Assembly (NCBI GenBank): GCA_015231795.1
Contig: JADGAX010000006.1
Span: 124,001-188,000 of the forward strand
Direction: 5' to 3'
From: Alphaproteobacteria bacterium
Lineage (GTDB): Bacteria > Pseudomonadota > Alphaproteobacteria > Rhodospirillales > WMHbin7
Length of the DNA stretch: 64,000 nucleotides
Shown: piece by piece, positions 1 to 11,276 of the stretch
Layout: every line of letters starts with the position of its first letter
Numbering within the stretch: the first letter of the stretch is position 1
Made by a program: the position numbers and the translations under genes
Notes under the pieces: model-generated
Told to the model about the DNA's origin: nothing
The model's database searches: none
What the model saw: only the letters and a program-made list of their open reading frames with translations

Positions 1-1412
1 AGGGGCTGATCCTGTCGGGCGGGCCTTCCTCGGTGCTGGACGCCAATGCGCCGCTGCCGCCCCAATGCGTTTACGATTCAGGCCTGCCCATTTTGGGCAT
101 CTGTTACGGCCAGCAGTCGATGTGCCATCAGTTGGGCGGCAAGGTCGAAGCCGGACACGAACGCGAATTCGGACGCGCCTATGTCGACATCACCGGCGAC
201 TGCGCGCTGTTCCACGGCGCCTGGGCCATGGGGGGGCGCGAACAAGTATGGATGAGCCATGGCGACCGCGTGACCGCCATCCCGCCCGGTTTTCGTTCCG
301 TCGGCACGTCGGAGGGCGCCCCCTTCGCCGCCATCGCCAATGACGAGAAGCGCTATTACGGTGTGCAATTCCATCCCGAAGTGGTGCATACCCCGCACGG
401 CGCCAAGCTGCTGGCAAATTTCGTGCACGGGGTTTGCGCCTGCAAGAATGATTGGACGATGGCCGCCTTCCGCGCCCAGGAAATCGCCAAGGTCAGGGCG
501 CAGGTAGGGGCTGGCCGGGTCATTTGCGGCCTGTCGGGCGGCGTCGATTCATCCGTCGTGGCGGCCTTGCTGCACGAGGCCATCGGCGACCAACTGACTT
601 GCGTTTTCGTCGATCACGGCTTCATGCGCATGGGCGAGGCCGAGCAAGTGGTCAACGTTTTTCGCGACCGCTTCAACATCAATCTGGTGCATCGCGACGC
701 ATCCGAACTGTTCCTCTCGAAACTGGCGGGCATGACCGACCCCGAGAAGAAGCGCAAGACCATCGGCGGTTTGTTCATCGACGTCTTCGAGGAAGAGGCC
801 AAGAAAGTGGGCGGCGCCGATTTTCTGGCCCAGGGCACGCTGTACCCGGACGTCATCGAATCGGTCAGCTTCATCGGCGGACCAAGTGTGACCATCAAAA
901 GCCATCACAATGTGGGCGGCTTGCCTGCGCGCATGAATATGAAGTTGGTCGAACCCTTGCGCGAATTGTTCAAAGACGAGGTGCGCGCCCTGGGCCGCGA
1001 ATTGGGACTGCCCGACGAAATGGTGGGCCGCCACCCCTTCCCCGGCCCTGGCCTCGCCATCCGCATTCCCGGCCAGGAGATTACGCGCGACAAACTGGAT
1101 ATCTTGCGCAAGGCCGACGCCATCTATCTGGAAGAAATCCGCAATGCGGGCCTGTACGACGCCATCTGGCAAGCCTTCGCCGTGCTGCTGCCGGTGCGCA
1201 CCGTGGGCGTGATGGGGGATTCGCGCAGCTACGATTACGCCCTGGCCTTGCGCGCCGTGACCAGCACCGACGGCATGACCGCCGATTTCTATCCCTTCGA
1301 CATGAATTTCCTGGGCCGCACGGCGAACAGGATCATCAACGAGGTCAAGGGCATCAACCGCGTGACGTTTGATGTCACCAGTAAACCGCCGGGAACGATT
1401 GAGTGGGAATGA
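1..1412 (+). CDS. guaA: GMP synthase (glutamine-hydrolysing), 5'-truncated by the window edge
   Basis: Converts XMP to GMP using glutamine and ATP, the last step of guanylate synthesis. The frame is open from base 3 ([10 protein letters not shown]), so the first GTG at position 33 is internal and the true start lies outside the window. Visible in order: the glutamine amidotransferase nucleophile motif GICYGQQS, its HPE motif (FHPEVVHT), the ATP pyrophosphatase P-loop SGGVDSS, and the C-terminal dimerisation domain ending in the typical KPPGTIEWE. The family is normally about 520 residues, so roughly 60 are missing. Identification is very secure. Confidence 0.97.
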
Positions 1413-1419
1413 GCCGGGC

Positions 1420-1665
1420 GTGGCGAAAACGCCTTGGTTTCATGAATTCAAGGCCGAGATCGAGCGAGACGCAAAGGAATTGCTGGCCGCCCGCGATGCC
1501 CGTCCGCCCGAGCGCTGGTCTTACGATGAGGCCGCCGCCCGCACCCGTGATTTCTATGTCGAGCGCATTATCGGCTACGCCACTTGCCTTAGCATCACCG
1601 TGCCAGAGAGAGATGAATTGCTGGGGTTGATCGACGGGCTTTGGCCCCCTTCCGAGAACGGTTGA
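1420..1665 (+). CDS. small conserved-looking hypothetical protein
   Basis: A protein of about 81 residues, beginning MAKTPWFHEFKAEIERDAKE if the GTG at 1420 is the start. An ATG at 1372 in the same frame would add 16 residues and overlap guaA by 41 nt. The sequence is charged, soluble and mostly helical, with no signal peptide or membrane segment. Its stop codon directly abuts the ATG of the next gene (1666), so the two are probably co-transcribed and translationally coupled. I do not recognise the family. Confidence 0.6.
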   Translation: MAKTPWFHEFKAEIERDAKELLAARDARPPERWSYDEAAARTRDFYVERIIGYATCLSITVPERDELLGLIDGLWPPSENG

Positions 1666-2016
1666 ATGAGCATCACTATCTTCGGCATCAAAAATTGCGA
1701 CACCATGAAAAAGGCTTTCGCTTGGCTGGACGAGCATGGAGTCGCCTATGTCTTCCACGACTACAAAAAGCAGGGCGTGGCGAAGGCCGACCTTGAACGC
1801 TGGTGCAAGGCGCTGGGCTGGGAGAAGGTATTGAACCGCGCGGGCACCACCTTTCGCAAATTGGCCGAAGACAGGCAGAAGAATCTCGACCAAACCAAGG
1901 CCATCGGCCTGATGCTTGAACAGCCAAGCATGATCAAGCGCCCGATCATCGAGGGCGAAGGCATCCTGGATCTTGGCTTCAAGCCCGAGCGTTACGCATC
2001 CATTTTCAAAACTTAG
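1666..2016 (+). CDS. ArsC/Spx-family protein, YffB-like
   Basis: A 116-residue thioredoxin-fold protein of the arsenate reductase-like family. It starts ITIFGIKNCDTMKKAFAWL, the pattern of YffB proteins: one cysteine is kept, but the CxxC of glutaredoxins is replaced by C-x2-M. The length fits the family. YffB-type proteins are thought to be glutathione-dependent thiol reductases; genuine arsenate reduction is not supported because no ars genes are nearby. Its stop overlaps the 3' end of the convergent DUF423 gene by 11 nt. Confidence 0.85.
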   Translation: MSITIFGIKNCDTMKKAFAWLDEHGVAYVFHDYKKQGVAKADLERWCKALGWEKVLNRAGTTFRKLAEDRQKNLDQTKAIGLMLEQPSMIKRPIIEGEGILDLGFKPERYASIFKT

Positions 2017-2380
2017 TTTTCCGCCGCCCCCCAATCCCCATCACCACCAACACAATCCAGCCGCCGATAAGGGCAAAGCCGCCGGTGGGCGTGATCATGG
2101 GCCAAGCTAGCTCGCCGGTCAGCGCCTTCAAAGCCAGCGAGCCTGAGAACAGCAAAATCCCCGCCAAGAACAACAAGCCAGACAGATGCGCCAAGCGCTG
2201 TCCACCCGCCGCCAGCCGGTCAACGGCCAAAAGGGCAAGCGCATGCCACAGCGCGTAATGCGAGGCCTTGGCGGCGATTTCCGATTCATAGCTTCCCGGC
2301 GCAAATCCATGCGCGGCATAGGCGCCGAAGGCCACGCCAAAAGCGCCCGCCAGGCCTGCCGCGATCAGCCAAGGGCGCAT
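2006..2380 (-). CDS. DUF423 family membrane protein
   Basis: A 124-residue inner-membrane protein with about four hydrophobic segments, for example WLIAAGLAGAFGVAFGAYAA at the N terminus and FALIGGWIVLVVMGI near the C terminus. The pattern of FGAYAAHGF, an internal YALWHALALLA segment and a GG-rich last helix matches the DUF423 (YgdD-like) family. Function is unknown. It starts 3 nt after the stop of the DUF1566 gene upstream on the same strand, so both are probably one transcript. Confidence 0.85.
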   Translation of the reverse strand: MRPWLIAAGLAGAFGVAFGAYAAHGFAPGSYESEIAAKASHYALWHALALLAVDRLAAGGQRLAHLSGLLFLAGILLFSGSLALKALTGELAWPMITPTGGFALIGGWIVLVVMGIGGRRKTKF

Positions 2381-2383
2381 TTT

Positions 2384-3697
2384 CTATCCTCTAACACAAC
2401 GGACGAAATTATAGATGCGCAGCACGTCGCCCTGCGGCCCGGCCCCCTTGGGCAAGCGGGATTCGTCGCCGCTTTTGGGGCTTGAGCGCTGAGCGCCCGC
2501 GCCATGCACATCTGTCAATTTCAGATTGGCGGAAGACGAGGGGCCACCCATCATGCCTCCCGGCGGAAAGCCGCCCATACCTCCGCCCGGAGGACCACCC
2601 ATGCCACCGCCCGGAGGACCGCCCATACCTCCGCCCGGAGGACCACCCATCATGCCGCCGCCGCCCAGATGGCCCTGCGCCGTGCCAAACGAAATATAGA
2701 CTGCGAAATCGCCCGGTCGCCGTCCGTCGAGGTGAGAGGTGGAGGTCCAGAAATAGGGCCATTCGCGCTTGCCATCGTCATCCCTGATGGCGGTGATGGC
2801 GAAGATGGGATCAAGCGCCGCCGACTGCGTAGCCGAAGGCGCGCGCGCATAATCGACGATGCTGTGCAATTCCTTGGCGTTGGGCAGGCGCCAATCATTC
2901 TGTCCAGCAAGGGAAAGGCTTTCACAATAGGCTAGGGCTTGGCCCCAATCCAGCCCCTTGCCGCTGTCGGATTTGGTCCAGACGAGGCCGGTGGCGAGAT
3001 CGGCGATCGTGCCGTCGCCATTGTCCCTGAAATTGTTCTGCCCATAGGACGGATTGCCGCGCACATAGCGCGCATACCAGACGCGACCGCCCGGCCCGCC
3101 ATCCTGCGGATAGGCCTTGATCCGCCCATCGGCGAAGTTGACCCCGAAGAAGGAACGGTCGCGCCCCATGGTCAGGCCCAGATAGGCGGTGCTGGTCACA
3201 TATTGCGCGTCGATGAAACGCCCCTGGCTGGGATATTCGAAATTGAAATAGCGCGTATCGATATAGGGCTTGGCGTCGGCGGGGGCACCCTGCGTTCCAG
3301 GTCCGGCGCTGCCCGTCGCCCCTTGGAAATTCATCAGCGAATATAGTTCCTTGATAGTGGGCACCCGCCAGTCGGCAAATCCTCCGGTGCGGGCAGCCTG
3401 TGCCTGGGCGGGCGCTCCGGCAAAACTGGTTCTGCTGAACGCCTTCTCCCACATCAGGCCGGTCACCAGATCGCTGACCGTGCCGTCGCCATTGTCGCGA
3501 TATTGCGGGACCAGCCCTTGATATTGCGCATCCTGGCCGAAAAAGGCCTGACCGGACGATGGGCAGCCGACCCGGCCCATGTCGTCGTAACATTGCCTTT
3601 GGCCGGTGTCTGGGACGGCATAGGAGAGTTCGCCCGCCTGGGCCAATCCGCCCGCCAGGCATCCAAAAACGACCAAAAGACAATTGCCGCCTCGCAT
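2384..3697 (-). CDS. secreted DUF1566 (Lcl-type) domain protein with a Gly-rich repeat tail
   Basis: A 437-residue protein with an N-terminal signal peptide (GNCLLVVFGCLAGGLAQA). Two DUF1566-type modules follow, each with the hallmark pattern RDNGDGTVSDLVTGLMWEK (about residues 66-85) or RDNGDGTIADLATGLVWTK (about 222-240), then DWRVPTIKEL or DWRLPNAKEL. Between about residues 345 and 385 there is a low-complexity GGPPGGGM repeat. The family is extracellular; members in other bacteria act as collagen-like or adhesin modules, but no specific role can be assigned here. Likely co-transcribed with DUF423. Confidence 0.85.
   Translation of the reverse strand: MRGGNCLLVVFGCLAGGLAQAGELSYAVPDTGQRQCYDDMGRVGCPSSGQAFFGQDAQYQGLVPQYRDNGDGTVSDLVTGLMWEKAFSRTSFAGAPAQAQAARTGGFADWRVPTIKELYSLMNFQGATGSAGPGTQGAPADAKPYIDTRYFNFEYPSQGRFIDAQYVTSTAYLGLTMGRDRSFFGVNFADGRIKAYPQDGGPGGRVWYARYVRGNPSYGQNNFRDNGDGTIADLATGLVWTKSDSGKGLDWGQALAYCESLSLAGQNDWRLPNAKELHSIVDYARAPSATQSAALDPIFAITAIRDDDGKREWPYFWTSTSHLDGRRPGDFAVYISFGTAQGHLGGGGMMGGPPGGGMGGPPGGGMGGPPGGGMGGFPPGGMMGGPSSSANLKLTDVHGAGAQRSSPKSGDESRLPKGAGPQGDVLRIYNFVRCVRG
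2577..2648. repeat. three tandem 24-bp units inside the DUF1566 gene
   Basis: Units at 2577-2600, 2601-2624 and 2625-2648 differ by a few bases and encode the 8-residue repeat MGGPPGGG. The first and third units are identical. The repeat is in frame, so copy-number change by slippage would lengthen or shorten the protein without breaking it. Confidence 0.9.
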
Positions 3698-3789
3698 TAC
3701 CTTGCCTCCCCAGCCTTAAAACCGTCCCAGCTTGGTCATCAAAGCTCAAGATTTCAAGGAAAAGCCGATCCAAAGGCCCGTTCCCGGCC

Positions 3790-3818
3790 TTGACAGGCTG
3801 GGGGGGCGAAGCCATTAT
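3790..3818 (+). promoter_or_regulatory. sigma70-type promoter of tRNA-Ala
   Basis: A perfect -35 box TTGACA (3790-3795), a 17-nt spacer, and CATTAT (3813-3818) as -10. The predicted start near 3825 lies just ahead of the tRNA gene. Confidence 0.7.
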
Positions 3819-3838
3819 CCCGCCCTGCCTTCGGGCAT

Positions 3839-3914
3839 GGGGCCGTAGCTCAGTTGGGAGAGCGCCGCAATCGCACTGCGGAGGTCGTGAGTTCGAATCT
3901 CATCGGCTCCACCA
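3839..3914 (+). tRNA. tRNA-Ala (anticodon CGC)
   Basis: A 76-nt cloverleaf with encoded CCA. The acceptor arms GGGGCCG and CGGCTCC include the G3-U70 pair that is the identity element for alanine. The anticodon stem CCGCA/TGCGG encloses the loop ATCGCAC, with anticodon CGC at 3872-3874, reading GCG. The T-loop GTTCGAAT is canonical. The last 16 bases of the gene plus one base are repeated at 10682-10698. Confidence 0.97.
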
Positions 3915-3924
3915 TTTCGAAATT

Positions 3925-3951
3925 GGCTCGGTCTCAAGGACCGGGCCTTTT
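3925..3951 (+). terminator. rho-independent terminator after tRNA-Ala
   Basis: Stem GGCTCGGTC (3925-3933) and GACCGGGCC (3939-3947), five-base loop, followed by TTTT. Confidence 0.75.
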
Positions 3952-4036
3952 GCATTTCCGGGAAAGTCTTAGGCATAGCTAAAGGTTCAGTCTTCCGACT
4001 TGTACACTTCGGGATGAATGCCGTGACGAGGCCAGG

Positions 4037-4255
4037 ATGCGTGAGGGTAAAGTTTTTCAAGAACGGACGGATGGCCCGACGCCCCACGGCGGAACCTATT
4101 CGATTGCCTATTTCCGCGATGAACATGGCCGCCCAACCCTTAGGGACGATGCGGCAATAATCGAGATCGTTGAATATGACGAAACGGACCGAGAGATTTT
4201 CCACACTCGAATGGTTCAGAACCCGCTAGGCAGAGGTGACGCAGACGGCGCCTAA
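4037..4255 (+). CDS. small hypothetical protein, 72 residues
   Basis: Starts at an ATG with GAGG five bases upstream. The protein is acidic and soluble, and contains GPTPHGGTYSIAYFRDEHG followed by a strand-rich IIEIVEYDET segment, which looks like a genuine folded domain rather than a random frame. I do not recognise a named family with certainty. It is the first gene inside the putative island after tRNA-Ala and converges on the lipoprotein gene at 4260. Confidence 0.6.
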   Translation: MREGKVFQERTDGPTPHGGTYSIAYFRDEHGRPTLRDDAAIIEIVEYDETDREIFHTRMVQNPLGRGDADGA

Positions 4256-4259
4256 CCGG

Positions 4260-4673
4260 CTACATGTACACAGTCTGAAAAACCCATTCCTTGAAGGTAT
4301 CCTTGTAGAAGCAGAAGCCTTCATTGGGAACCGTTGGGTTCCATTCGCCTCTTTTCCGTTCCTGGGGGGCGTGCTGTTTATGATTGATGATCACGCGGAC
4401 ATTGGCCTTCACCGGCCAGCAGTTTTCGGCAAGTTTTCCCCACTCAAGCTGCATTTGTTTGATTCCGCCAATGCGGATATCCTTCACTTCGATCTGCACG
4501 CTGGCGACCCCGCCGCCCTCATCGTTGTAGCTTGACGTATAGTGAGGAATGAAACTCTTCTCGATCGATTTGATGATGTCGCCTTCGGAAATCTTCGGCA
4601 GGCCGTCTTCGAAGCACCCCGCCAAAAGAAAGGCAACGGGCAACAGCGCAACAAGTGATTTTATAATTGCCAT
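4260..4673 (-). CDS. lipoprotein of unknown function (paralogue of the gene at 7508)
   Basis: A 137-residue protein with a lipoprotein signal peptide (MAIIKSLVALLPVAFLLAGC; lipobox LAGC). It shares with the protein at 7508-7924 the features LPKIS-[ED]-x-[DE]-I at the mature N terminus, a GGGV segment, CWPVKANV in the middle and GEGFCFYK near the C terminus. Three cysteines (lipid-attached, CWP, FCFY) are conserved in both, and the last two may form a disulphide. The ATG at 4673 was chosen because the signal peptide begins there; the frame runs upstream to 4742. A palindromic motif lies 71 nt upstream. Confidence 0.75.
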   Translation of the reverse strand: MAIIKSLVALLPVAFLLAGCFEDGLPKISEGDIIKSIEKSFIPHYTSSYNDEGGGVASVQIEVKDIRIGGIKQMQLEWGKLAENCWPVKANVRVIINHKQHAPQERKRGEWNPTVPNEGFCFYKDTFKEWVFQTVYM

Positions 4674-4744
4674 CTCTGCGTTCTCCCAATAGCCCAGAAC
4701 CAAACGATGTTTCCGCAAGATAGCACCCTCCTCTTTCACCATTA

Positions 4745-4760
4745 CCCCTCAAATGGGGGG
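4745..4760. promoter_or_regulatory. shared palindromic motif, copy 1
   Basis: CCCCTCAAATGGGGGG lies between the divergent lipoprotein (start 4673) and phosphatase (start 4818) genes. It is the exact reverse complement of the motif at 7422-7437, and the distance to the lipoprotein start (71 nt) is nearly the same as at the paralogue (70 nt). Probably an operator; the binding protein is unknown. Confidence 0.55.
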
Positions 4761-4817
4761 GGCGAAACTCCAGTCATAAGGCTTGAATTCAAATCACTTT
4801 AGGGGAGCGACACTGAC

Positions 4818-6341
4818 ATGATGAGATTGGCCGTTAGAAACCTTGGCTACGCAGCCTGTTTCGCCAGCTTGGTTTTCACCTTCGAGGCAATGGCCGAAAG
4901 CAAGAAAATTACCTTCCTGCATGTCAACGACATCTACGAATTTCTGCCCGGCGACAGCCGCGGCGGCTTGGCAGAGTTGAAGACCCTCATCAAGGACGAG
5001 AAGCGCCGCAACCCCAGCGCCATGGTCACCTTCTCCGGAGACTTGCTTTCGCCGTCGGTCGCCTCGAGCGTGACCCAGGGAAGCCATATGATCGAGTTCT
5101 TCAATCGAATGGATGTATCGGCGGCGACGCTGGGCAACCACGAATTTGATTTCGGCGCCGATCAGCTTCGCCAACGGATGAAAGAGTCGACCTTTCCCTG
5201 GGTCGTCAGCAATGCCTTCGAACAGGATGGCAAGCCGTTTGGCAACGCCCAGGAATTGCGCGTCATCGAAGCCGAAGGGATCAAGGTTGGATATTTTGGT
5301 CTGCTGACATCCGAAACCGCCCATATGTCGGCTGGCGCCAAGCAAGTAACGTTCCGGCCCGAAATCGAAATCGCGCGCAAGTCGGTGGCGGCCCTCAAGG
5401 AAAGGGGGGCCGATGTCATCGTCGCCTTGACGCATCTTGACCTGGACGAGGACAGGAAACTGTTGCGCGAGGTTGGAGGAATCAATCTGATCCTTGGCGG
5501 TCACGACCATAATGCCGTCATTCTTGAGGAAGACGGCGTATTGATCGTCAAGGCGGGCGAGAACGGCACGCACCTGGCGGTGATCGAATTGGCGTTCGAA
5601 ACGCAGAAGGGCAAGGACGGCAAGGTTTCGGCGAAAGTGCGGTCCGATAGCTGGGGATTCCGTCCGACCAAAGGGGCCGGTGCCGATCCTGAACTTGAAA
5701 AGCTGGCGATGAGGTACGATACCGAACTGAAAGGCGCGCTTGATCAGCCGCTCACGACCCTTGGCGTGCCTTTGGACAGCCGGGAGGAGATGGTCCGCGG
5801 GCGTGAAACGGCAATCGGCAATCTGGTCGCCGATGCCTTGAAATCAGCCCTTGGCGCCGACATCGCCTTGATCAACGGCGGAAGCTTGCGCGGCAACCGG
5901 CAGTATGAAGCGGGAGCGGTATTCACGCGAGCCGATGTCCTTCGGGAATTTCCCTTCAGGAACAGTGCCGTGCTGATTGAAATCAAGGGCAGTGATTTGC
6001 TGGCGGCTCTCGAGGCGGGCGTTTCAAAGGCGCCGGCAAAGGCAGGACGCTTCCCTCAAGTCGCTGGAATCAAGTTTTCCTACAGCCCGGCAGCCGAACC
6101 GGGAAAGCGCGTGCGCAAGGTTTCCGTCGCGGGCAAGCCACTGCAGCCTTCAGCAAGCTACCGGCTGGCTACGAACAGCTATCTGGCCGACGGGGGCGAT
6201 GGCTATGAAGCCCTCAAGAAGGGCAGAATGTTGGTTGACCGCATGTCGGCGCCGATATTGACAACCCTGGTCATCGACGCGCTGGCAAGCATGGGCAGCG
6301 TTCAGACGCTCGTCGAAGGCCGCATTCTGGAAACCAATTGA
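4818..6341 (+). CDS. secreted 5'-nucleotidase/UshA-type metallophosphatase
   Basis: A 507-residue protein with a signal peptide cleaved near AMAESKK, and a GGGGAG-type RBS before the ATG at 4818. The N-terminal calcineurin-like phosphoesterase domain (about residues 30-250) shows the metal ligands in HVNDIYEF, FSGDLLSPS, LGNHEFDFG, ALTHLDLDED and LGGHDHN. The C-terminal 5'-nucleotidase domain (about 320-480) has GNLVADALKSALGADIAL, NGGSLRG and FPFRNSAV. The family hydrolyses nucleotides, UDP-sugars or related phosphoesters in the periplasm; the exact substrate cannot be told. It is the best-defined enzyme of the island. Confidence 0.9.
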   Translation: MMRLAVRNLGYAACFASLVFTFEAMAESKKITFLHVNDIYEFLPGDSRGGLAELKTLIKDEKRRNPSAMVTFSGDLLSPSVASSVTQGSHMIEFFNRMDVSAATLGNHEFDFGADQLRQRMKESTFPWVVSNAFEQDGKPFGNAQELRVIEAEGIKVGYFGLLTSETAHMSAGAKQVTFRPEIEIARKSVAALKERGADVIVALTHLDLDEDRKLLREVGGINLILGGHDHNAVILEEDGVLIVKAGENGTHLAVIELAFETQKGKDGKVSAKVRSDSWGFRPTKGAGADPELEKLAMRYDTELKGALDQPLTTLGVPLDSREEMVRGRETAIGNLVADALKSALGADIALINGGSLRGNRQYEAGAVFTRADVLREFPFRNSAVLIEIKGSDLLAALEAGVSKAPAKAGRFPQVAGIKFSYSPAAEPGKRVRKVSVAGKPLQPSASYRLATNSYLADGGDGYEALKKGRMLVDRMSAPILTTLVIDALASMGSVQTLVEGRILETN

Positions 6342-6358
6342 GGCAAGAAGCTCGGCGC

Positions 6359-6820
6359 TTATTCAGGCGAATAGAGAAGGGCAAAAGCGAAGACGCCAAC
6401 CAGGATGCACAAGCCAATGCACCACAGGGCTGAGACATAAACGCCTGCCCTGGCATTAAGCGCGGATATGGCCGGATTGGCCGGGTTGTAAATGGCGAAG
6501 GCGGGCAAATTGTCCAGCAGGGCGCGGGTCTGCTCCTCGGCTTTTTTTCTTGTCATCGGCGTCTGCTGGCCAAAAAGCAGACGGTCTCCAGTCCATGTCT
6601 GCCCGTCTGCCTCGAAGGCGTAGGAGACCTTCGTCGCGTAGGATGGTACGCCCTGGACGCTGCGTTCCACGACCGAGGCATCCAAGCTGCTGCAGATGGC
6701 ACGCGGCCATGAACGGGCTAGGTGCGCCATTCTCAGATCCCGAAACAAACGGTATACGTGAAAGGCGAAAACGCCGGCTGAAATCAGCAGCGAAATGGCG
6801 GACTGCGCGGAACTCAACAC
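6359..6820 (-). CDS. DUF3592 domain membrane protein
   Basis: About 153 residues: an N-terminal transmembrane segment (AISLLISAGVFAFHVYRLF), a DUF3592-like extracytoplasmic part with VSYAFEADGQTWTGDRLLFG and FAIYNPANPAISAL (cf. the usual V.Y.P..P....L pattern), and a C-terminal hydrophobic helix. The GTG at 6820 is preferred because GGGAG lies ten bases upstream; a GTG at 6853 in frame has no visible RBS. Family function is unknown. Confidence 0.7.
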   Translation of the reverse strand: MLSSAQSAISLLISAGVFAFHVYRLFRDLRMAHLARSWPRAICSSLDASVVERSVQGVPSYATKVSYAFEADGQTWTGDRLLFGQQTPMTRKKAEEQTRALLDNLPAFAIYNPANPAISALNARAGVYVSALWCIGLCILVGVFAFALLYSPE

Positions 6821-6890
6821 GTCTTTATTTCTCCCGCATAAAGATTGAGTCACGGTTGGCAGGCGGAAGGAATGGCAATCCGCAAGCCGC

Positions 6891-7307
6891 CTATTCCTGG
6901 CAGGTCATTTGGACAGTCAAGGAACCCGGCTCTGGCTTATGCATAACTTCAATATATACTTTCCCGGCCTTGTCCTGACTGTATCTGGTTTCGGTAATAC
7001 GTGAAGGAGCCTCGGAAAAGGGCTTGAACGGGCCATTCCAGGTGACAAGATTCTTGGCGCCCGCCTTTTCGACCGTGTACGTCCCCTTCGAATGCATGTT
7101 CTTTCCGTCCGGCGTACCGAACTTATAGCTGTTTCCTGCAATCTCCAACTTGCCGATATTCGTCAGCATCCGCCCATAGGTGGCCGTGCAACGATAGCTG
7201 CCCGAAAGAATTCCGCCATCAGCCGCATGGCCCTGCTGGGTTGCGAACTGGCCAGCCGTCAAGCCAAGGGCGGCAATCAAAGCAGACTTGAGAAAGCTCT
7301 TCATCAT
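6891..7307 (-). CDS. secreted hypothetical protein
   Basis: About 138 residues with a cleavable signal peptide (MMKSFLKSALIAALGLTAGQ, cleavage near HAADGG). The mature part is small and strand-rich, with two cysteines (SYRCTATYG and the C-terminal MTCQE) that could form a disulphide, as in lipocalin-like periplasmic proteins. Two adjacent ATGs (7307 and 7304) are possible starts, with GGGGA upstream; the frame extends to 7376 but that part does not resemble a signal sequence. I do not recognise a family. Confidence 0.65.
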   Translation of the reverse strand: MMKSFLKSALIAALGLTAGQFATQQGHAADGGILSGSYRCTATYGRMLTNIGKLEIAGNSYKFGTPDGKNMHSKGTYTVEKAGAKNLVTWNGPFKPFSEAPSRITETRYSQDKAGKVYIEVMHKPEPGSLTVQMTCQE

Positions 7308-7421
7308 GGGCGTCCCCGCCACCTGGAATGAATCGATTTTGTACCCGCAACACCGGCTGGGATGAATGTCTGTCACCCACCCGAGCCGACGACATTATGG
7401 GGCATCGCTAATGCATCCCCA

Positions 7422-7437
7422 CCCCCCATTTGAGGGG
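7422..7437. promoter_or_regulatory. shared palindromic motif, copy 2
   Basis: CCCCCCATTTGAGGGG, the exact reverse complement of the copy at 4745-4760, located 70 nt before the start of the paralogous lipoprotein gene at 7508 and about 115 nt before the divergent gene starting at 7307. Confidence 0.55.
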
Positions 7438-7507
7438 CTGCTTGCTGGGGCGATTGGGTTAGCCTGGAATTCCATAGGCGGCGCAACAAAGTGATATCGG
7501 AGGATAA

Positions 7508-7924
7508 ATGGTCTTCAGTTGGAAACGATTTGCTCTACTGCCTCTCTGCGCCGTAGCGCTAGCAGGATGTTTTGGCGACAAATTGCCGAAAATTTCCGAA
7601 GACGAGATCGTCAAAACGATACAAAGCGAATTTGGTTCTTACTATCGAGCAACCAACAATCTGTACGGTGGCGGCGTCAAGGATGTGCAGGTAGACGTAT
7701 CCGCAGTCAAAATTGGCCCAATTACCGAAATGCAGTTATTCTACGGAAAAAATGCTGAGCCCTGCTGGCCCGTGAAGGCCAATGTCAAAATTACCGTCAT
7801 TTTCAACTCGCATGCGCCAAGCGAATCTTTGCGTGGCGGATTGAACACAAGCTCGCCCGGCGAAGGCTTTTGCTTCTATAAAAACGAATTCAAGGAATGG
7901 AATTTCAAAACCCCAAGCTTCTGA
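7508..7924 (+). CDS. lipoprotein of unknown function (paralogue of the gene at 4260)
   Basis: A 138-residue protein with a lipoprotein signal peptide (FALLPLCAVALAGC; lipobox ALAGC). It shares LPKISED, GGGVKDVQV, CWPVKANV and GEGFCFYK with the paralogue and is similar along the whole length. RBS GGAGG lies just before the ATG. The two copies face away from each other with the phosphatase and two other genes between them, consistent with an inverted duplication. Function unknown. Confidence 0.75.
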   Translation: MVFSWKRFALLPLCAVALAGCFGDKLPKISEDEIVKTIQSEFGSYYRATNNLYGGGVKDVQVDVSAVKIGPITEMQLFYGKNAEPCWPVKANVKITVIFNSHAPSESLRGGLNTSSPGEGFCFYKNEFKEWNFKTPSF

Positions 7925-8154
7925 TCGCTTTCTGGAGAGACGATATTTTCAATGCTCCAAACATATTGGGATGGAATTATCGCCCTAAAAATAGTATGGT
8001 CTTTACTGTCCGCTAAATAGCAGATATTTCGACTAAAATCAAGAAGATACGAGCCATATAACCGCCATATTATACCTTAATTTTACCTTATTTCTTTGGC
8101 ATAAAGGCATGACTTCCAAAATGAACAACTGGAAGGCTCGAATTGGAGAGCATC

Positions 8155-8871
8155 ATGGAAGATGCCGATCAAGGGAACGGACAAGAATGTCAGACATGCC
8201 TGTACAACGCCTCGCCTCGCCCAGCCACATCACCTGAATACCCGGCAATCTGCAATTCTCTTTTGGATCTCCTGGGCGTTGGCGTCATCGTCTTTGCGGA
8301 TTCGAAGGCCGTTTATGTCAACCAGCAGGCGGATGAAATCCTTGCCAGCTGCGATGGGCTGCGGCTGGACGGTGGCGGCCGTTTGCGCGCGGCCAAGCCG
8401 GACGAAGACCGGGCGTTGCAGAATTTGCTTCGAACGCCGCACCATCCGTCAGCGGGCACGCAAGAGCGTGAGCGGTCCTCCCTGACGATTTCCAGGCATT
8501 CTGAAAAGCTGCCATACCCGATTACAATATCCCATTTGCCGATCGCAACGGGCCAGACGCAGCCCAGTCCAAGACAGGTTGCGGCATTCATCCGCGATCC
8601 AAACCATATCGGAACCATTGCGTGGGAGGCGGTCGCCGGAATCTTTGACCTAACGCCGACCGAGGCAAAACTGGTTCGCCACCTCGTCGAGGGCCATTCG
8701 CCTGAAGACGCCGCCAAGCTGATGGGCATCAATGTCAGCACGGCCAGATGGCATCTGAAGCAGATTTTTGAGAAAACGGCGACAAACCGACAAACCGAAC
8801 TCGTCCGCTTGATTCTTGGAATGGCGATGCCTTTGCGGTCGTTTGGAACTGTCGACATCCCTCCCAAATGA
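8155..8871 (+). CDS. LuxR-type transcriptional regulator
   Basis: A 238-residue regulator. The C-terminal helix-turn-helix (about residues 170-230) reads FDLTPTEAKLVRHLVEGHSP, then AAKLMGINVSTARWHLKQIF, the LuxR/NarL pattern. The N-terminal half contains a PAS-like stretch (GVGVIVFADSKAVYVNQQAD), a form seen in PAS-LuxR orphan regulators; no receiver domain is present. The ATG at 8155 has GGAG six bases upstream; an in-frame TTG at 8143 is less likely. It is the only regulator in the island, so it is a candidate for binding the shared palindromic motifs. Confidence 0.8.
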   Translation: MEDADQGNGQECQTCLYNASPRPATSPEYPAICNSLLDLLGVGVIVFADSKAVYVNQQADEILASCDGLRLDGGGRLRAAKPDEDRALQNLLRTPHHPSAGTQERERSSLTISRHSEKLPYPITISHLPIATGQTQPSPRQVAAFIRDPNHIGTIAWEAVAGIFDLTPTEAKLVRHLVEGHSPEDAAKLMGINVSTARWHLKQIFEKTATNRQTELVRLILGMAMPLRSFGTVDIPPK

Positions 8872-8875
8872 GGGG
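8860..8875. promoter_or_regulatory. shared palindromic motif, copy 3
   Basis: CCTCCCAAATGAGGGG matches copy 2 at 13 of 16 positions and lies 75 nt upstream of the small membrane protein gene at 8951. It overlaps the last codons of the LuxR gene. Confidence 0.45.
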
Positions 8876-8950
8876 ATCGCCTGCCTCACCCGTCTGCTTT
8901 CATTCACATAACTTGAAGCGATCCATCTAGAAAAGTAACGGGAGGAAAGG

Positions 8951-9085
8951 ATGGACTCTGGCGTTGTTGCGCTGCTTGCCGTCATTGGTGTGATCGGATA
9001 TCTCATCTATCGCAGAGTCAAGAATGGCCCTGATGGCTATAGCGATGACAGCGAAACTTTCCGCGACCATTGGGACCGGGATTGA
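8951..9085 (+). CDS. 44-residue single-pass membrane protein
   Basis: ATG at 8951 is preceded by a near-perfect RBS (GGAGG at 8941-8945). The product begins MDSGVVALLAVIGVIGYLIY, a single transmembrane helix, followed by a positively charged stop-transfer (RRVKNG) and an acidic tail ending DHWDRD. RBS quality, the textbook membrane topology and an upstream shared motif support a real gene. Function unknown. Confidence 0.65.
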   Translation: MDSGVVALLAVIGVIGYLIYRRVKNGPDGYSDDSETFRDHWDRD

Positions 9086-9087
9086 CG

Positions 9088-9471
9088 CTACCTGCAGGGT
9101 GATGCGCTCTCTGTGGAATAGCTGGCACAGCCCTGAAGCCTGTCAATCGTGATGGAAAGAACGCGGGGCGAAACGGCCGGATCGCCGCCGCAGACGTCAT
9201 CATGCTTCTCGCGGACATCGATTGTGTAATACCGGCTTGTTGCCTGGGGTGCTGCAACAAAAACCAAACACTGCGCGGAAATCTCAAGAACCGGCTTTTT
9301 TGTATAGGCCGCAAGCGCCAGATCAAGCGCCTGTTCCTCGTTACCGATGATGCGTCCCGTGCAGTATCGTTCCGAAGCCTGGCTTGCCCCACCCGTAGTC
9401 AGGAAAGCAAGGGCGAAGAGTCCAAGACCCTTCGCCCAAGTTTTCCCGCAATGTCTTTTCGGGGCCGTCAG
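9088..9471 (-). CDS. secreted cysteine-containing protein without a canonical start codon (possibly broken)
   Basis: A 127-codon open frame ending in TAG at 9088. It encodes a hydrophobic signal-like stretch (KGLGLFALAFLTTGGASQAS) followed by a mature part with five cysteines, including RYCTGRIIGNE, ISAQCLVF and DDVCGGDP. It lacks any ATG, GTG or TTG before the signal-like stretch. The only candidate is CTG at 9471, overlapping the stop of the lectin gene (CTGA). Either a CTG start coupled to the lectin gene, or a gene whose start was lost by a small indel. The coding character is convincing; the start is not. Confidence 0.5.
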   Translation of the reverse strand: MTAPKRHCGKTWAKGLGLFALAFLTTGGASQASERYCTGRIIGNEEQALDLALAAYTKKPVLEISAQCLVFVAAPQATSRYYTIDVREKHDDVCGGDPAVSPRVLSITIDRLQGCASYSTESASPCR

Positions 9472-10079
9472 TTTGCCCCGCCCATGGCGATGACATTGGC
9501 GCCGCCGATGGCGATGACATTCGCACCACCCATGGCAACGACATTGGCGCCGCCCATAGCGACGACATTGCCGCCGCTGCTTGCCAACTTCTGATTTATG
9601 GCGCTAGCCTTCTGCTGGACGTCGGCCGGAAGACTGCCCAAGGGCTGCATCTGCCCCTTCCTGAATTTCTGATTGATGCCGCCATGACATTTCCAGGCAA
9701 TGATCTGTGAACCAGCCCGGTCTGCCTGGCCTTTTACATCCATGCACCAGCCTTCTTCATTATTGACCTGGCCGCCGCTCATCGCCCACTTCTGGCTCTT
9801 TTTATTCGGGTCGCAGGATTGAACGGCAAGCGACCTCCCCTCGCCTTGGCTTTCCACGCAACGCCCATTCATCATCAGCGGACCATAGCCGTTAAAGGAA
9901 ACTTGCTGATTCGAGCCGCCATGGCAGTTCCAGAGAATCAGATCGCTTCCACCGCCGCGCACATCGACGCACATGGCGGATGGCATGCCCGTGCCCATAA
10001 AGAATGTTTCAGCCAGTGCGGGCGCGGCGCTCAGGCTTGTCGCAAGGGCCGCCAACATAATGACCAGTGACTTTCTCAT
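9468..10079 (-). CDS. secreted ricin B-type lectin domain protein with a C-terminal octapeptide repeat
   Basis: A 203-residue protein with signal peptide MRKSLVIMLAALATSLSAAP (cleavage near ALAET). The mature part is a beta-trefoil of the ricin B type: MCVDVRGGGSDLILWNCHGG, then a CVESQGEGRSLAVQSCD lobe, then WCMDVKGQADRAGSQIIAWK and CHGGINQKF. These carry the repeated C-D-V and Q-x-W/F signatures. The last about 35 residues are four copies of NVVAMGGA-type octapeptides. The fold binds sugars in many proteins; ligand unknown. The start has upstream GGAGG in reverse orientation (10088-10094 region). Confidence 0.85.
   Translation of the reverse strand: MRKSLVIMLAALATSLSAAPALAETFFMGTGMPSAMCVDVRGGGSDLILWNCHGGSNQQVSFNGYGPLMMNGRCVESQGEGRSLAVQSCDPNKKSQKWAMSGGQVNNEEGWCMDVKGQADRAGSQIIAWKCHGGINQKFRKGQMQPLGSLPADVQQKASAINQKLASSGGNVVAMGGANVVAMGGANVIAIGGANVIAMGGAN
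9481..9576. repeat. four tandem 24-bp units encoding NVxAxGGA
   Basis: Units at 9481-9504, 9505-9528, 9529-9552 and 9553-9576 are about 80-90 percent alike and in frame with the lectin gene. They form its extreme C terminus. Confidence 0.9.
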
Positions 10080-10137
10080 TGCCGATAACCTCCGAGTTTG
10101 TTGATCTCCTCATAAAAGCAGTTGAAGTTACAGCGCG

Positions 10138-10155
10138 CCCCTCCAAAATTAGAGG
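10138..10155. promoter_or_regulatory. possible fourth, degenerate copy of the shared palindromic motif
   Basis: CCCCTCCAAAATTAGAGG resembles the copies at 4745, 7422 and 8860 but needs a one-base gap to align. It ends exactly 71 nt before the start of the gene at 10227, the same spacing as the better copies, and 58 nt before the divergent lectin gene. Confidence 0.35.
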
Positions 10156-10226
10156 CGTGCATGACGCTGGCGCAGATAACATGGCTAGTCGAAAGTTGCT
10201 GCCCACTGGATGCCAGGGAAAGTTTG

Positions 10227-10640
10227 ATGACCAGCACAAACCTTGTTTTCGCCGCAACCATTCTAGCCTGTGCAACCACGGAATCGCTTGCCGGTCCCAA
10301 GGGCATCGTCACAAGCTATGAAGCTGTCTTTGAGGGTGAGATGCATGACCGCAGCGCGGATCAGAAGCACTCGTTGCGACTGGTCATGCGTCAAGATGGC
10401 GAAAGGCTTGAAGCCAGAACGGATAGTTCTGCTTCCGGCATGCTGAAAGGCTGGCGAAGAAATGGCTTATGCAGCTTGAAGGGCCGGATTGAAGGAGTCT
10501 ATCTGGTGCTTTTGGGGGACTGTTCCGACAAAAGCTATAAGGGCAACTTTACGCAAATTGTAGAAGGCGGGAATCTGGAGGGGGTCTTCCAGTTGGAAGC
10601 CGTCTCTGGAAATCTAAAGCCTGTTTCAGCCCGAAAGTGA
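10227..10640 (+). CDS. secreted hypothetical protein
   Basis: About 137 residues beginning MTSTNLVFAATILACATTES, a signal peptide with a weak lipobox (ILAC). The mature part is strand-rich with GEMHDRSADQKHSLRLVMRQ and two cysteines (LCSLKG, GDCSDK), typical of small periplasmic beta-barrel proteins. The ATG at 10227 has AGGGA seven bases upstream; the frame runs back to 10122. Not recognised. It is the last gene of the putative island. Confidence 0.65.
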   Translation: MTSTNLVFAATILACATTESLAGPKGIVTSYEAVFEGEMHDRSADQKHSLRLVMRQDGERLEARTDSSASGMLKGWRRNGLCSLKGRIEGVYLVLLGDCSDKSYKGNFTQIVEGGNLEGVFQLEAVSGNLKPVSARK

Positions 10641-10681
10641 GAAAGCCGCAGAAATCCATGCTTTCTACGCATGGACTGCGC

Positions 10682-10698
10682 CTCATCGGCTCCACCAT
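10682..10698. repeat. 17-bp copy of the tRNA-Ala 3' end (candidate attachment site)
   Basis: CTCATCGGCTCCACCAT is identical to 3899-3915, which covers the end of the T arm, the acceptor strand and CCA of tRNA-Ala. No tRNA precedes it here. Immediately downstream, GCCCCA and TGGGGC can pair and may be the remnant of the original tRNA terminator. Confidence 0.75.
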
Positions 10699-10841
10699 CA
10701 TTTCCTTCAATGTAGCGGCACCCGTTCGGGTAGGCCCCACCCTGACCGGCTGGGGCGGTTGATTCTTTCCATCAAAGGCGCATGCTGAATTTACGAATTG
10801 AGACCGGATAACCGGCTCGGACATCCTGGGAGGAGTGAATA

Positions 10842-11276
10842 ATGACCATTGAAGCGATTCTGCGCACAAAGGGCAAAGACGTTTTCACGCTGCGCCCTGA
10901 AAGTTCGGTTGGCGACGCGACGGCCCTGTTGGCCAGCAAGCGCATCGGCGCCGTTGTGGTTTGCGATTCCAAAGGCCGCATCATGGGCATGCTGTCCGAG
11001 CGCGATATCGTGCGCGGCATGAGCCAGTATGGCAAAAGCGTCTATGACATGCCGGTGCGCAATCTGATGAGCAGCCCCGTGACCACCTGCTCGCCCAAGG
11101 ATAGCGTGAAGAAGATGACCAGCCTGATGAACAGCAAGCGTTTTCGCCACCTGCCGGTGGTCGATAACGACGAGTTGATCGGCATCGTTTCCATCGGCGA
11201 CCTGGTCGGCGCCAGAATCAGCCATGCCGAGATGGAAATGGGCGTTCTGAAAGACATCGCCTTCGCCAGACGCTAA
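10842..11276 (+). CDS. CBS-domain pair protein
   Basis: A 144-residue soluble protein with two CBS motifs. The first is about residues 8-58 (VGDATALLASKRIGAVVVCD, then GRIMGMLSERDIVRG); the second about 75-130 (DSVKKMTSLMNSKRFRHLPV, then LIGIVSIGDLVGARI). Stand-alone CBS pairs bind adenine nucleotides and act as energy sensors, but the partner cannot be inferred. RBS GGGAGGAG precedes the ATG. It lies just outside the island. Confidence 0.93.
   Translation: MTIEAILRTKGKDVFTLRPESSVGDATALLASKRIGAVVVCDSKGRIMGMLSERDIVRGMSQYGKSVYDMPVRNLMSSPVTTCSPKDSVKKMTSLMNSKRFRHLPVVDNDELIGIVSIGDLVGARISHAEMEMGVLKDIAFARR

Follow-up and report, generated by a model that had tools for sequence, protein, structure and literature searches.

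The 64,000-nucleotide stretch analysed here (the window; positions 124,001 to 188,000 of contig JADGAX010000006.1, assembly GCA_015231795.1, from an alphaproteobacterium) contains a genomic island at positions 3916–10698, after tRNA-Ala(CGC), in which a 16-bp palindrome recurs and one gene encodes a LuxR-type regulator. An earlier note on this DNA had read the palindrome as a common activator or repressor site of a private regulon and had pointed to the LuxR protein as the candidate regulator. The repetition of the palindrome before most island genes, on a small piece of transferable DNA of an aquatic bacterium, supports a private regulon as judged from the sequence, and we consider it probable that the four palindromes are the operators of the PAS-LuxR-like protein, which would act as a dimer and class II activator. 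The regulator, the candidate operators and the genes beside them are listed below, with identities to homologues in a same-genus genome (G003), which corresponds to Rhodospirillaceae bacterium LM-1.

8155–8871, plus strand: PAS-LuxR-like regulator, 238 amino acids (aa), recognition helix TARWHLKQIF; 79% ortholog in LM-1
4745–4760, no strand: candidate operator 1, CCCCTCAAATGGGGGG, between lipoprotein A (minus) and 5'-nucleotidase (plus)
7422–7437, no strand: candidate operator 2, CCCCCCATTTGAGGGG, between gene 6891–7307 (minus) and lipoprotein B (plus)
8860–8875, no strand: candidate operator 3, CCTCCCAAATGAGGGG, sharing bases with the luxR stop codon, ahead of the 44-aa membrane protein
10140–10155, no strand: candidate operator 4, degenerate, CCTCCAAAATTAGAGG, two mismatches to the consensus, between lectin (minus) and gene 10227 (plus)
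4260–4673, minus strand: lipoprotein A, no Pfam family, presumed target; 73% in LM-1
4818–6341, plus strand: UshA-like 5'-nucleotidase (PF02872, PF00149; NCBIfam matches below cut-offs), presumed target; 75% in LM-1
6891–7307, minus strand: small protein with signal-like N-terminus, presumed target
7508–7924, plus strand: lipoprotein B, paralogue of A (50% identity), presumed target; 80% in LM-1
8951–9085, plus strand: 44-aa membrane protein, presumed target; 51% homologue in LM-1
9468–10079, minus strand: ricin-B-type lectin (PF00652) with C-terminal octapeptide repeats, presumed target; 92% homologue in LM-1
10227–10640, plus strand: small protein with signal-like N-terminus, presumed target; 67% homologue in LM-1

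All four sites were present where the earlier note had placed them, the fourth being set at 10140–10155, and its distances from site to start codon were reproduced: 71 nt to lipoprotein A (start 4673, minus strand), 70 nt to lipoprotein B (start 7508), 75 nt to the 44-aa protein (start 8951) and 71 nt to gene 10227. Operators 1 and 2 are identical inverted copies. Operators 1, 2 and 4 lie between divergent genes and also face the 5'-nucleotidase (4818), gene 6891–7307 and the lectin gene (start 10079), respectively. The half-site is usually CCYCY[CA]AW, and C1, C2, C4 and A7 were common to 16 of 16 half-sites at the eight sites of the two genomes (seven distinct words). In LM-1, the word of operator 2 recurs unchanged before the lipoprotein B homologue, the counterpart of operator 3 is CCTCCCAAATGAGAGG in the same place, and that of operator 4 is CCTCCAAAATTGGAGG. 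Operator 3 also codes for the last codons and the stop of luxR (ATC CCT CCC AAA TGA GGGG; PPK-stop), as does its counterpart in LM-1.

A search of the whole genome to which the window belongs (G000, 3,628,312 bases), set beforehand as the test that could overturn the regulon, found exact matches to CCYCYCAWWTGRGRGG at three places, all three inside the island. One mismatch added a single place, within a long open frame, and up to two mismatches gave 26 places, four of them the island sites. Among the 15 of 22 off-island places that were examined, L019 and L026, with −10-like scores above 4, both fell within open frames. The exact motif is not spread through the genome, and this test did not refute the private regulon. 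LM-1 has two exact sites, both in homologous, rearranged genes: one between the 5'-nucleotidase and lipoprotein B and the other before the 44-aa protein, with degenerate sites between the lectin and the 10227 homologue and before lipoprotein A. The 5'-nucleotidase gene is thus divergent from lipoprotein B in LM-1 and from lipoprotein A in the window, with a site kept both ways. Confinement of the exact sites in two genomes, and retention of sites before the same genes despite the rearranged gene order, support the private character of the regulon.

The spacing from site to start codon, which the earlier note had taken as constant, holds in the window (70–75 nt) and breaks down in LM-1 (52–102 nt; the 10227 homologue would be at 78 nt with an earlier in-frame start). 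Better conserved was the distance to a −10-like hexamer: within a search window of 15–29 nt, of the 12 promoters tested in the two genomes, 8 have their best hexamer starting exactly 22 nt beyond the site and 10 at 21–24 nt, and the observed mean −10 peak was reached at any offset by none of 500 dinucleotide shuffles. Because the −10 distance is nearly constant and the start-codon distance varies in LM-1, we regard the start-codon spacing as secondary. The hexamers in the window are the following; the promoter of gene 6891–7307 is a thirteenth, outside the 12-promoter spacing test.

4717–4722, minus strand: −10-like TATCTT of lipoprotein A, 22 nt after operator 1
4783–4788, plus strand: weak −10-like TTGAAT of the 5'-nucleotidase, 22 nt after operator 1 (TCAAAT at 28 nt scores higher)
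7394–7399, minus strand: −10-like CATAAT of gene 6891–7307, 22 nt after operator 2
7460–7465, plus strand: −10-like TAGCCT of lipoprotein B, 22 nt after operator 2
8898–8903, plus strand: weak −10-like TTTCAT of the 44-aa protein, 22 nt after operator 3
10112–10117, minus strand: −10-like TTTTAT of the lectin gene, 22 nt after operator 4
10177–10182, plus strand: −10-like TAACAT of gene 10227, 21 nt after operator 4

No −35 element was found 16–18 nt before these hexamers (mean match 2.0 of 6 over 13 promoters versus 2.34 at random positions), and a two-hexamer sigma-70 scan of 3700–11000 returned two matches, none at an operator (shuffle mean 3.5), as expected of activator-dependent promoters. 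In standard promoter geometry the −10 element spans −12 to −7, so that the sites would be centred near −42.5. An apparent activator site near −42 and a −10-like hexamer, combined with the lack of a consensus −35, correspond to the layout predicted for class II activator-dependent promoters. According to excerpts of PMC4471428 and PMC3376562, lux boxes are likewise centred at −42.5, and PAS-LuxR sites sit in the −35 region of target promoters (excerpt of PMC9774167). The fixed distance to the hexamer thus agrees with a common regulatory site, and the geometry favours an activator, a choice that the earlier note had left open.

The island regulator has a C-terminal LuxR/GerE helix-turn-helix (HTH). 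The family profile matches NarL, VpsT, VraR and GerE and aligns RWHLK of the island protein with VKVHVK of NarL, a recognition-helix position that touches bases in NarL, and the structural model superposes on the NarL HTH at 0.8 Å over 56 columns. The whole model was closest to EL222 and VqmA, with TM-scores of 0.24–0.31 over the 15 Foldseek matches at E of at most 0.001. No Pfam PAS match was obtained for the island protein, and PAS_8 was sub-threshold in the homologues L064 and L066. The Pfam scan also found no autoinducer-binding domain (PF03472) in the island protein, and its identification as an acyl-homoserine-lactone quorum-sensing LuxR was rejected on this ground. Longer homologues (about 385 aa) carry an extra N-terminal part, and in L064 PF03472 was sub-threshold (19.2 versus 23 bits).

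An association between this type of recognition helix and the palindrome extends to other phyla. A contig scan with two LuxR-pair peptide patterns (WHLKQIF and an N-terminal one), and not with the motif, yielded 16 loci, comprising LM-1 and 15 others at 31–37% identity, labelled Gemmatimonadota, Gammaproteobacteria, Acidobacteria and, in one case, alphaproteobacterium (we take Palauibacter to be Gemmatimonadota and Immundisolibacterales to be Gammaproteobacteria). Using a matrix made from the island sites alone (score at least 15), we found 20 sites in the 15 helix-fetched loci (200,905 bases), against 0.6 expected from shuffles, and 13 of the 15 contained at least one. No site, with 0.2 expected, came from 18 shorter LuxR loci (59,263 bases) that belong to relatives and encode different helices. 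A second set was drawn by protein similarity alone from 395 Gemmatimonadota genomes, 38 of which matched at E of 1e-60 or better, with loci taken for the best only. There were 82 LuxR genes with a readable helix, at least 60 bits and at least 150 nt upstream, and 57 after dropping those more than 90% identical. A site (score at least 13, at most 300 nt upstream) preceded 18 of 26 genes with the helix [RQ]WH[LVF][KR] versus none of 31 genes with a different helix (Fisher p 5e-9), and 15 of the 18 sites lie 35–126 nt before the luxR start. In these 18 luxR promoters the best −10-like hexamer was at 22 or 23 nt in 11 (two with negative scores), and the mean −10 peak, weaker than in the island, was nevertheless reached by none of 500 shuffles.

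Exact matches to CCYCYMAWWTKRGRGG, with overlapping matches taken once, occurred at 12 places in the 13 other-phyla genomes behind the helix-fetched set (about 51 Mb). Seven of these lie within 300 nt of a helix-class luxR gene, and three of the other five fall within long open frames; a reversed control pattern gave two. Because the LuxR homologues are related, these helix and site counts are not independent events. The suggestion that the island LuxR is the regulator gains from these comparisons, as the same palindrome lies beside distant LuxR genes with the same helix, and all eight other LuxR-type matches in the window's genome have other helices. Upstream of two homologues whose helices differ, L069 (TCCGTCAATTGACGGA, helix RTHLE) and L141 (TACCCCATTTGAGGTA, helix RVHLK), lie palindromes that are also centred on AWWT but have other arms; these single cases hint at a helix–operator code. 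More broadly, PAS-LuxR activators of several phyla might form one family, a possibility that we put somewhat short of an even chance. Their 16-bp operators, centred on AWWT and placed about 22 nt ahead of the −10, would have arms determined by the recognition helix, RWHLK going with CCYCY[CA], and perhaps RTHLE with TCCGTC and RVHLK with TACCCC; the island would represent a self-contained, transferable version of such wiring.

Several observations weigh against assigning the sites to the island protein as a class II activator. Its GerE match (19.6 bits) is below the Pfam curated cut-off of 23.5, its model is of moderate confidence (pLDDT 69.8, pTM 0.51), and the protein tree places it apart from the main clade, on a branch that is long and uncertain. 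Eight of the 26 helix-class genes have no site in their own promoter: the window luxR itself, L060, L065, L092 (score 11.5), L093 (6.4), L128, L129 and one of two L134 genes. For L060 and L065, a site followed by a −10-like hexamer at +22 is present past the luxR gene or genes. A tree test of helix against site offered only two supported independent pairs (on average 0.8 agreeing and 0.0 disagreeing) and was not significant. The −10 matrix was drawn up from general background, and the two 5'-nucleotidase promoters depart from the 22-nt spacing (28 and 18 nt). As to chance occurrence, the 16-mer with up to three mismatches is only mildly unusual within the window alone (four matches; shuffle mean 1.41, with 3 of 100 shuffles reaching four). 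Finally, at C1:583749, one of the off-island places examined, the match falls between genes and a −10-like hexamer follows at +23, so that a weak site may exist there outside the island. As a separate observation, the L060 locus (1193–4679), in an alphaproteobacterial metagenome-assembled genome, has tandem PAS-LuxR-type genes, with the operator-like site and −10-like hexamer (+22) following the last of them.

In the mechanism that we favour, a LuxR dimer would bind the 16-bp site with one HTH on each CCYCY[CA]A half-site, and from near −42.5 would substitute for the missing −35 and recruit RNA polymerase to the −10 about 22 nt past the site (class II activation). Because the site is symmetric, it could serve promoters on both sides, so that four sites could control up to seven promoters. 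These would be switched on together, giving two lipoproteins, the 5'-nucleotidase, the lectin and three small secreted or membrane proteins, and transcription from the lipoprotein B promoter may continue into luxR. The putative PAS-like sensor domain would respond to a signal. The presumed target products mostly appear secreted or membrane-bound, their N-termini having been judged by eye.

The same protein could instead bind the sites and repress by blocking RNA polymerase at the −35 region, as part of the LuxR superfamily does repress and the site overlaps the expected −35 position. We consider this unlikely, since the promoters lack a −35 and have no two-hexamer match at the operators, and hence would be weak unaided, and the centre near −42.5 is the position of the activating lux box (from the excerpts cited above). 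The palindromes might also be true operators bound by another chromosomal regulator, with the adjoining luxR incidental. The link between protein and site is one of association, and the promoter of the window luxR itself is without a site. This, too, seems quite improbable, because the palindrome accompanies distant luxR genes sharing the helix, the exact sites are island-confined in two genomes, and the eight further LuxR-type matches of the genome, in a survey that covered LuxR-type regulators, carry other helices.

Activation by the island protein also has to be set against a role of the palindromes as RNA hairpins or island recombination sites rather than operators, which their symmetry would allow. 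Compared with the LM-1 stretch L033, window positions 4745–7437 fit an inversion between the identical inverted operators 1 and 2, with lipoprotein A moved to the other end. However, the arms do not keep pairing, since both half-sites follow one consensus and give C-A, T-G and A-A oppositions, and the sites lie upstream of the predicted −10 elements. Recombination between repeats of the ordinary kind would equally explain the inversion, and no integrase or other recombinase was found among the 10 island proteins scanned. We therefore regard hairpins or recombination sites as very improbable.

We regard the regulon as a variant of a type already known. The PimM-type PAS-LuxR regulators of Streptomyces, with the operator CTVGGGAWWTCCCBAG (excerpt of PMC9774167), resemble the island protein in having a LuxR HTH, joined to a PAS-like domain that is putative in the island protein, and in using a 16-bp palindrome-like, AWWT-centred operator in the −35 region of several target promoters. 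This likeness is drawn from the published operator and not from direct protein comparison. Length and AWWT centre fit most island sites, whereas the arms differ (CCYCY[CA] here versus CTVGGG there), and the island targets are envelope-type proteins in contrast to the polyketide clusters of the PimM type. Membership in the PimM type thus fails on the operator arms, and working like that type does not. PMC3367932, in the excerpt consulted, concerns the PimR site and was not used.

VqmA of Vibrio and phage VP882, which joins PAS to a LuxR HTH, was among the best fold matches (7dwm, 6ugl, 6ide; 15–18% identity in the fold alignments, whole-chain TM about 0.30); its site, according to an excerpt of PMC8284805, is a GG-N6-CC palindrome within 18 bp, through which it activates vqmR. 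The best Foldseek match was EL222 of Erythrobacter litoralis (8a5r, 3p7n; E 9.9e-6, 15% identity, TM-score 0.26), whose PAS/LOV-class sensor domain joined to a LuxR HTH appears, on the model, similar in layout. LuxR itself resembles the island system in its palindromic activator site at −42.5 and differs in having a 20-bp lux box rather than 16 bp (excerpts of PMC4471428 and PMC3376562); unlike LuxR, the island protein has no detected autoinducer-binding domain. Among open-licence papers on PAS-LuxR/PimM, sponge or Gemmatimonadota LuxR, PAS/LuxR operators and VqmA, mostly represented by title and start of abstract, we found no description of this operator.

For the PAS-LuxR-like proteins of several phyla, the analysis provides an operator together with a promoter geometry and a regulator that can be tested, and it ties a recognition helix to a DNA word. 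We consider this apparent cross-phyla helix–operator link the more interesting part of the result. It also groups several function-unknown proteins into one unit and presents a small island as the carrier of a closed regulatory circuit. If this is true, the island arrives with an activator of its own and as many as seven ready-made promoters, and envelope genes would be controllable in a new host without host regulators.

The limits of the island are given by a direct repeat of 17 nt and by comparison with relatives.

3899–3915, plus strand: left border, 17-nt direct repeat, 3' end of tRNA-Ala(CGC)
10682–10698, plus strand: right border, 17-nt direct repeat, copy of the tRNA-Ala(CGC) end

LM-1 has an empty site, in which position 2076 of L144 corresponds to window position 3915 and 2092 to 10682, the overlap being the repeat, and in G002 the two island flanks lie about 30 nt apart. 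The flanking repeats and the empty site in a relative identify a tRNA-borne genomic island. The homologous genes of LM-1, a strain which by its name we read as the Ca. Magneticavibrio boulderlitore LM-1 of PMC12724286 (excerpt), are located elsewhere and adjoin a phage-type integrase; their LuxR is 78–79% identical to that of the window, and no homologue of gene 6891–7307 was found in L033. The lipoprotein family matched only its own genome and LM-1 among 40 relatives; a survey of 385 genomes of the class added to its own genome a single weak match (G240, E 2.5e-4), and none of 42 candidate stretches in viral contigs matched. Plasmids gave 132 LuxR records, all below 60% identity. PHROGs had no family for lipoprotein B, gene 10227 or the 9088–9474 protein described next.

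At the 3' end of the lectin gene (9472–9591) a 24-nt unit repeats and encodes octapeptides rich in A, M, G and N. The lectin gene is followed on the minus strand by a conserved protein (9088–9474; 73% to LM-1) with a signal-like start. Its frame lacks ATG, GTG or TTG near the expected start, and translation may begin at a CTG that overlaps the lectin stop (CTGA).

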